From the NCBI GenBank assembly GCA_030427935.1, contig JAUICI010000004.1, positions 1-60,329 of the forward strand: a stretch of DNA of 60,329 nucleotides, in the 5' to 3' direction. Under the pieces are notes generated by a model, which saw only the letters and a program-made list of their open reading frames with translations, was not told where the DNA came from and did no database searches. The DNA comes from Bacteroidia bacterium (GTDB lineage: Bacteria; Bacteroidota; Bacteroidia; Flavobacteriales_D; Crocinitomicaceae). Positions 25,994-26,456 of the stretch are shown here, piece by piece (position 1 is the first letter of the stretch; every line of letters starts with the position of its first letter). A program made the translations under genes and the position numbers.

Positions 25994-26456
25994 GTTCTAA
26001 GTTCTAAGTTCTAAGTTCTAAGTTCTAAGTTCTAAGTTGTTTAAAAACTATTTTATTGATCGGATAAATCCTTTAATTATTCTTGATATTTCTTCACACT
26101 TACTAATTAAAATATCTCGAGTTTCTAAATCTAGATAGTTTAACCTATAAGCTAGATATAACATTGACTTTACTTCTGCAACTGATCCGTTGGATATAAA
26201 CATGAACCTAATCAATTCTTTGTTACTATATCTTTCAAACCCTTCGGCAATATTATTCGAGGAACTCACAGATGCTCTTCTAAGTTGATCTTTGAAAGAA
26301 TAATCCTTCAGGTCTTCGGTTAATCTATAAATATCTACTGCTAAATCCTGACTTTTTTGCCAAGACAATAAATCTTCAAATTTGGTTATTTTCATTTTGA
26401 TAAAATTTAAAAGGTTAATGATAATACTTAGAACTTAGAACTCAGAACCTCAGAAC
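25994..26456. mobile_element. Four-helix-bundle element 1 with inverted 7-bp arrays
   Basis: Left array: six exact tandem copies of GTTCTAA at 25994-26035. Right array: TTAGAAC twice, then TCAGAAC and CTCAGAAC at 26428-26456, the reverse complement of the left word. A single minus-strand gene of the 23S IVP family fills the space. The right array abuts the yraN stop codon at 26458. Inference: a small mobile or domesticated unit. No transposase or target duplication was seen. Confidence 0.65.
26048..26395 (-). CDS. Four-helix-bundle protein (23S rRNA IVP family)
   Basis: The 115-residue product has the family hallmarks: LLSWQKSQDLAVDIYRLTEDL at the start, FKDQLRRASVSSSNNIAEGFER in the middle, and SVAEVKSMLYLAYRL. 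The family (PF05635/TIGR02436) was first seen inside intervening sequences of 23S rRNA genes; members form pentameric or related helical bundles, and their activity is unknown. Related Avd proteins help diversity-generating retroelements, but no reverse transcriptase is near. It lies alone between inverted arrays. Confidence 0.92.
   Translation of the reverse strand: MKITKFEDLLSWQKSQDLAVDIYRLTEDLKDYSFKDQLRRASVSSSNNIAEGFERYSNKELIRFMFISNGSVAEVKSMLYLAYRLNYLDLETRDILISKCEEISRIIKGFIRSIK

Follow-up and report, generated by a model that had tools for sequence, protein, structure and literature searches.

The window, i.e., the whole stretch of 60,329 nucleotides analysed here, is a part of contig JAUICI010000004.1 (assembly GCA_030427935.1) of a Bacteroidia bacterium of the family Crocinitomicaceae. 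Between yraN and a short convergent open frame it contains a gene of the IVP family, framed by two inverted arrays of a 7-bp word (Table 1). The preliminary description of the locus had reported six exact GTTCTAA copies on one side of the gene, an array of TTAGAAC on the other side, next to the yraN stop, and one IVP-family gene in between, and all of this was confirmed. The six copies stand head to tail at 25994-26035, inside a perfect 45-bp run; the opposite array, with two exact and two near copies, begins straight after the stop codon of yraN and in the gene sense reads AGTTCTGAGGTTCTGAGTTCTAAGTTCTAAGT, with five AG. The unit is thus located between two protein-coding frames, not inside a 23S rRNA gene as the intervening sequences (IVS) are, while its frame is bounded by complementary termini, as in the IVS.

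Table 1. Features of the IVP locus and of the second IVP gene in the window
Feature	Position	Strand	Remarks
62-aa open frame	25738..25926	+	convergent, on the 3' side of the element
3' end array	25994..26038	+	perfect 7-bp tandem of 45 bp; TTAGAAC in the gene sense
IVP gene (four-helix bundle, PF05635 / TIGR02436)	26048..26395	-	115 aa; hmmscan, AF2 model
Leader, from 5' array to IVP start	26396..26425	-	TTAACC..TTTAAAT motif (by eye)
5' end array	26426..26457	+	TTAGAAC, two exact and two near copies; adjoins yraN stop at 26458
yraN (UPF0102), upstream host gene	26458..26811	-	stop codon touches the 5' array
Second IVP gene	30820-31119	-	arms ~30748-30782 and 31180-31214

The product of the gene exceeds the curated cut-offs of both family profiles in hmmscan searches (PF05635: E 3.7e-32, 111.1 bits, cut-off 33.8; TIGR02436: E 1.9e-32, 111.7 bits, cut-off 24). 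Its AF2 model (pLDDT 96.9) comprises four helices and is similar to the solved structure of Xcc0516 (2gsc; TM 0.85-0.91), which predicts a four-helix bundle. No match to this protein was found in phage records at E 1e-5, and the one Rfam hit, being below its gathering score, was regarded as chance. By eye, a motif similar to that of the leader is found at other IVP genes of the same genome. By itself, the 7-mer is no rarity in the window, with 13 hits and 9.6 expected from shuffling; what is unusual at this locus is the tandem run together with the inverted pairing. When each 5' flank was compared with the reverse complement of its own 3' flank (threshold score 13), the flanks of the window element scored 23, a value equalled or exceeded by 0.36% of the swapped flank pairs.

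The same genome harbors nine PF05635 genes, two of them within the window. Seven of the nine have matching inverted flanks (score at least 13); one of the remaining two (L008) scores 12.5 and the other (L005) is interrupted by the contig end. The inverted words beside the second IVP gene of the window (ATATGCTGATT...) are weaker, with a score of 12.5 for its own arms (p 0.066). As judged by eye, the word differs each time among the flanks of the nine genes, e.g., TTAAGGA, GACTTGGG, AATAGGT, TTTAGAC, and GGTGGAGAG, so that the terminal repeats are not common to the copies of one genome, as they would be in a DNA transposon with fixed terminal inverted repeats; the rarity of matches between swapped flanks likewise speaks against fixed shared termini. 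Within-genome copies reach at most 79% identity among 110 genes, and none is recent. Several IVP genes of the window genome (L001-L005, L008, and L009) have a leader close to TTAACCATTTAAATCAAT ahead of the ATG, as seen by eye, and at L009, L010, and L029 the word occurs in both orientations on each side, which results in strong direct and inverted repeats. A solo 24-bp array of the heptamer ATTCCGA is located at 37366-37389, far from both IVP genes of the window. In a sister species the same gene is found in the same place and with the same word, two copies of which stand on each side; its yraN is 69% and its IVP protein 84% identical to those of the window, and a sequence similar to the 62-aa frame is visible (by eye) beside that element too.

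The preliminary description had proposed to search related genomes for IVP genes and to compare their flanks, and this comparison revealed inverted word arrays far beyond the window. PF05635 is present in 25 of 30 genomes, including that of the window, and 60.7% of 107 IVP genes with flanks have matching ones; at the same threshold the share is 3.3% for 1588 pairs of swapped flanks and 1.4% for 706 other frames. In an enlarged set, to which loci from the phylum, from one genus, and 80 named genome loci were added, 148 of 243 IVP genes (61%) have matching flanks, vs. 4.3% of swapped pairs; the other 95 do not match at the threshold used. The most telling control is provided by genes of 80-200 aa sandwiched between same-strand neighbours 15-130 bp away on each side: at a score of at least 12, matched arms flank 66 of 105 such IVP genes and only 2 of 43 other genes (Fisher 7e-12), one of the two being a GIY-YIG gene (L315, score 13). 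The GIY-YIG genes were considered as possible partners with the same ends and rejected, since the inverted flanks found at 7 of 22 examined are, by eye, not heptameric. Several of the same genomes have more than one copy of these genes of ~70-140 aa (L367-L396), and the repeat at L385 is a perfect one of 28 nt.

The words have a common grammar, carrying AG(T) every 7-9 nt. In the 5' arms of 122 well-matched elements, AG outnumbers CT in 101 cases, CT outnumbers AG in 7, and the two are equal in 14; G exceeds C in 105, C exceeds G in 8, and they are equal in 9. The AG-AG distances in 125 tight gaps are most often 7, followed by 8 and 9, and show harmonics at 14, 16, 21, and 24. Defining a chain as AG words spaced by 6-10 nt, we found the longest chain of the 5' arm to consist of five words in 39, of four in 20, and of six in 10 of these 125 elements (shuffled mean 2.1), while in the 3' arm five is the most common length (28 of 125; shuffled mean 1.7). 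The five-word mode is weaker after weighting by protein clusters: of a total weight of 47, the 5' arms give 24.4 for chains of 0-2, 9.9 for five, 5.9 for four, and 1.3 for six, and the 3' arms 27.9 for 0-2, 5.3 for four, and 5.2 for five. Chains of at least four on both sides are present in 52 of 105 sandwiched IVP genes and in none of 43 others. The solved relatives, Xcc0516 (2gsc) and BT_0352 (2rld, related to the window protein at a sequence E of 0.02), have five chains per entry. Given pentameric relatives and chains most often of five, one word per subunit would be a natural idea.

Might the arrays be ordinary slippage microsatellites, which gather in intergenic DNA and are found beside IVP genes by coincidence? 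Such arrays do occur alone: across 1.35 Mb of stretches, 80 of 132 have no IVP gene nearby, and 2.3% of 5738 control stretches contain one. Yet the preliminary description had named a lack of correlation between arrays and IVP genes as grounds for abandoning its proposal, and the correlation is there, 52 of the 132 lying within 300 bp of an IVP gene, a region that makes up 5.7% of the bases. Of the 80 solo arrays, only 6 are accompanied by an inverted partner at a distance of up to 1.5 kb, other sandwiched genes are devoid of matched arms apart from the two of 43 mentioned above, and a polarity of 101 to 7 is foreign to simple slippage. We regard the coincidence as very improbable indeed.

The words tend to go with the protein, even when it resides elsewhere. 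Among 118 elements, using pairs with both neighbours known and unrelated, words are common to 40.2% of 851 pairs with at least 55% protein identity, while ~1% of sampled pairs below 40% identity share words; permutation of flanks within phylum groups gave a mean of 19.4%, and none of 1000 permutations was as high as the observed value. The result holds for Bacteroidota alone (26.0% of 150 pairs vs. 2.2% permuted) and for pairs between phylum groups (40.8% of 529 vs. 16.6%), where word-sharing partners are Bacteroidales and Desulfobulbaceae, Melioribacteraceae and Patescibacteria, or Omnitrophota and Patescibacteria; the cross-phylum loci are mostly from MAGs, which makes some contamination possible, though the flanking genes differ. 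In the order-level set alone, which contains few close pairs, word and protein are only weakly linked (rho 0.04 and p 0.04 over 2117 pairs), with a mean score of 9.4 for identities of at least 45% and of 8.4 below 35%. Since related proteins tend to keep their word at unrelated sites, the gene and the words travel together. If elements of one junction are compared, 56% of 97 have own flanks that match, and swaps of flanks between them match in 22% of 532, which indicates that the words of both ends change together.

As to the sites of residence, both neighbours are readable for 188 of 247 elements, and 97 of these fall in 25 junctions common to at least two elements; some of the 25 groups are orthologues inside one genus, and groups 11 and 22 (five memberships), which are tandem IVP genes, were kept in the counts. 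The host junctions include sdhA/sdhB, sufB/sufC, cysD/cysN, atpA/atpG, nuoC/nuoD, and a fatty-acid oxidation pair, "fadB/fadA," the names being assigned by reading the end sequences of the neighbours, with no profile search. As judged by eye, the stop of the upstream gene is usually where the arrays begin, and they finish near the start of the downstream gene. The lineages of IVP proteins are specific for junctions: 27 label changes suffice for 25 groups, and the nearest labelled neighbour is at the same junction in 82 of 96 cases (shuffled mean 5.5, maximum 16). Such specificity also fits old insertions, followed by vertical inheritance and many losses.

Two junctions were surveyed for empty sites. 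At sdhA/sdhB, in 28 genomes (in one of which, G029, the upstream frame that was read is not SdhA), six have the element, one (G017) has a decayed element with arrays, and 20 have gaps of 1-107 bp. No arrays were seen by eye in any of the 17 empty gaps of up to 54 bp, and three gaps of 72-107 bp might contain array remnants. At fadB/fadA, seven of 26 loci are occupied, five were not parsable, and 13 show gaps of 16-128 bp; nine of these gaps are no longer than 54 bp, and a few of the longer gaps may contain words. On the whole, the empty junctions of both kinds are mostly shorter than 60 bp and, by eye, mostly free of arrays. In single genomes these junctions are occupied by other genes without word arrays, as judged by eye: a MntA/HepT-like pair at sdhA/sdhB in G014 (L155) and a nucleotidyltransferase-like gene at fadB/fadA in G027 (L188). 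Mapped on a host tree of 29 rows, the sdhA/sdhB element (7 of 28 occupied, the decayed one counted) requires 6 changes and the fadB/fadA element (7 of 21 occupied) 7 changes, so the presence pattern at both junctions is close to maximum patchiness. The same gene at the same place in all genomes, which the preliminary description would have taken as a refutation, was accordingly not observed. The closest pairs of an occupied and an empty junction have a DNA identity of 72-80%.

One genus (g70) provides an opportunity to look at the junction fadB/fadA among closer relatives. Two of its species have the gene, with an in-frame stop in one of them. The gene is missing from six others: by eye, inverted word pairs occur in the gaps of two (67-68 bp), single word tracts are seen in three, and the last shows nothing but a short gap. 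Word-like tracts are therefore present in five of the six gene-less species, and the arrays are not strictly tied to the gene. These tracts look like remains after gene loss; the opposite order, with the arrays coming first, may also be considered. Insertion of the gene into pre-existing arrays is in general disfavoured by the mostly array-free empty junctions, the tracts of g70 being the counter-example.

The gene itself is under purifying selection. The median dN/dS of 91 same-junction pairs is 0.16 (maximum 0.62), and the 17 closest pairs that give a ratio have values from 0 to 0.17, which means that the IVP protein is in use. One may then suppose a regulatory cassette serving the host and maintained for its usefulness, in which the IVP protein binds the words in the intercistronic mRNA and sets the ratio of the products of the adjacent genes. 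AG repeats together with a ring protein resemble TRAP in outline, and besides the low dN/dS of the closest pairs the location between genes of one operon would suit such a role. Against it are the patchy presence at both surveyed junctions, the multitude of unrelated junctions, and the inverted word on both arms, whereas an mRNA site needs only one. We consider this explanation quite improbable.

Another possibility is that the element acts at the level of RNA, like the IVS of 23S rRNA: the arms would pair in the polycistronic mRNA, the stem looping out the IVP frame and either being cut by RNase III or holding both cistrons close. A stem of this kind had been suggested from the start, and folding makes it feasible, the RNA of 25990-26460 (minus strand) having an energy of -111.1 kcal/mol (z -5.1; none of 100 shuffles as good). 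A precedent is the IVS of Coxiella, 428 nt long, which is reported to have heptamer repeats ahead of its frame and a 28-bp terminal stem and to be excised by RNase III (PMC4990558). By duplex energy, own arms beat swapped ones at p of up to 0.05 in 42% of 243 elements, but pairing is unremarkable (p > 0.2) in 80 of 243; we think that duplex energy separates own from swapped arms incompletely due to their common AG grammar. Selection for the stem failed in two tests: no mirrored word order between the arms was detected (the shuffled mean was exceeded in 28 of 53 cases, p 0.17), and the excess of G-U mismatches in the sense strand is not significant (231 vs. 208, p 0.29; 203 vs. 166 when one element per junction is taken). 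Arms of the same word pair in many registers, and therefore these negative results leave a stem possible; still, the pairing tests show no selection for it beyond the word itself. All in all, an RNA-level element seems unlikely to us. The word at both ends points inwards, as protein sites at the two ends of a DNA unit would. The other suggestion made at the outset, namely that the arrays could be ends recognised for movement, is supported in so far as they are ends of a travelling unit, by the absence of arrays (by eye) from most empty junctions and by the words following the protein to other sites and across phyla.

PF05635 genes were found in 116 of 148 Bacteroidota genomes, with up to 16 copies. 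Matched arms in the named loci were found in Bacteroidota (22 of 39), Patescibacteria (24 of 28), Ignavibacteria (3 of 3), and others (7 of 9), swapped flanks matching there too (12% of pairs in Bacteroidota, 45% in Patescibacteria, 43% in others), as the words are alike in these loci. Of 10 IVP genes opened on plasmids of cyanobacteria, 8 have matching words at both sides with scores of at least 13, these scores being inflated by purine-rich words and lacking a swapped control; at L359 and L361 the flank match extends outside the gaps. Some of the plasmid genes stand in the gaps cas6/cas4 and cas10/cmr3. A report of 2013 describes 18 IVP genes from cas loci, frequently together with cas4 or cas6 and in one case between cmr2 and cmr3, and presents them as a function of interest (PMC3936711). 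In place of the CRISPR-Cas-associated function proposed there, the IVP genes of the plasmid cas operons (L359, L362, and L365) look like insertions with word-array ends, and hence their listing under a cas-associated function may mislead.

The relation of these units to known systems is as follows. They share with the rRNA IVS a PF05635 frame inside terminal inverted repeats; a survey of CPR bacteria likewise describes IVP frames in insertions of 16S and 23S rRNA (PMC11270868). Unlike the IVS, they reside between protein cistrons, have inverted word arrays on both sides, and occur in several copies per genome with different words; their frame is under purifying selection, while that of Coxiella is described as decaying. 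Avd of the diversity-generating retroelements (DGR) has the same fold as the predicted structure of the window protein (4dwl and the DGR ribonucleoprotein 8ub7, TM ~0.8) at an identity of ~10% and a Foldseek E of 0.01 to 0.2, and a DGR paper states that homology is suggested by alignments (PMC10053308). Intergenic tandem words of 7 nt, as here, are known as heptamer repeats in Nostoc and Xanthomonas (PMC4692102) and as TAACTGA repeats in Beggiatoaceae, Cyanobacteria, and Bacteroidetes (PMC4679880); the accessible parts of these two papers link them neither to IVP genes nor to inverted pairs. Among the matches listed by our literature search, the coverage of which excludes most subscription journals, none describes intercistronic IVP units with inverted word arrays.

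Taken together, we consider it rather probable that the locus represents a minimal insertion element, akin to the 23S rRNA IVS, the ends of which are arrays of putative sites for its own ring protein. The unit, its ends, the sites where it resides, its patchy presence, the purifying selection, and the tracking of the protein by the words were established by comparison of sequences, while the binding of the words by a ring and the bringing together of the ends for movement or copying by a partner are what we infer. The proposed element, ~450 bp long, would comprise a single IVP gene enclosed by inverted arrays at its termini, the word of which, 7-9 nt in length, is based on AG(T); the gene product is probably a ring of five subunits, each a four-helix bundle. 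Gene and arrays would form a single unit, spreading by horizontal transfer and inserting into intercistronic gaps of conserved operons. Its ends would be the arrays, to which, most likely, its own protein binds, perhaps with one subunit to each word; joint changes of protein and word would make the words specific for lineages. A ring bound to the words could unite both ends, and a partner, either a reverse transcriptase or the host machinery, could then move or copy the unit. Against this reading as an insertion element, no movement was observed, and neither a nuclease nor a transposase is encoded.

A wider proposal, which we put forward tentatively and with more doubt than confidence, is that of a new class of mobile elements in many phyla: the ends would consist of about five words, one for each subunit of a pentameric ring formed by the product of the sole gene; word and protein would co-evolve freely, making the ends lineage-specific, and the heptamer repeats already known between genes of cyanobacteria, Bacteroidota, and others would for the most part be such ends or their remains. 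In any case, the phenomenon is general and wider than the preliminary description had supposed, and what looks like a widespread insertion unit with its own word in several phyla suggests an unrecognised kind of mobile DNA. With ~450 bp and one gene, it would, in our judgement, rank among the smallest mobile elements. Three puzzles would receive a single explanation: the existence of free-standing IVP genes, their presence in unrelated operons including cas loci, and the origin of some heptamer repeats. The function of the IVP/S23 proteins becomes testable as well, since for every element the word marks a candidate binding site, and IVP proteins that are related but have different words represent ready specificity pairs.
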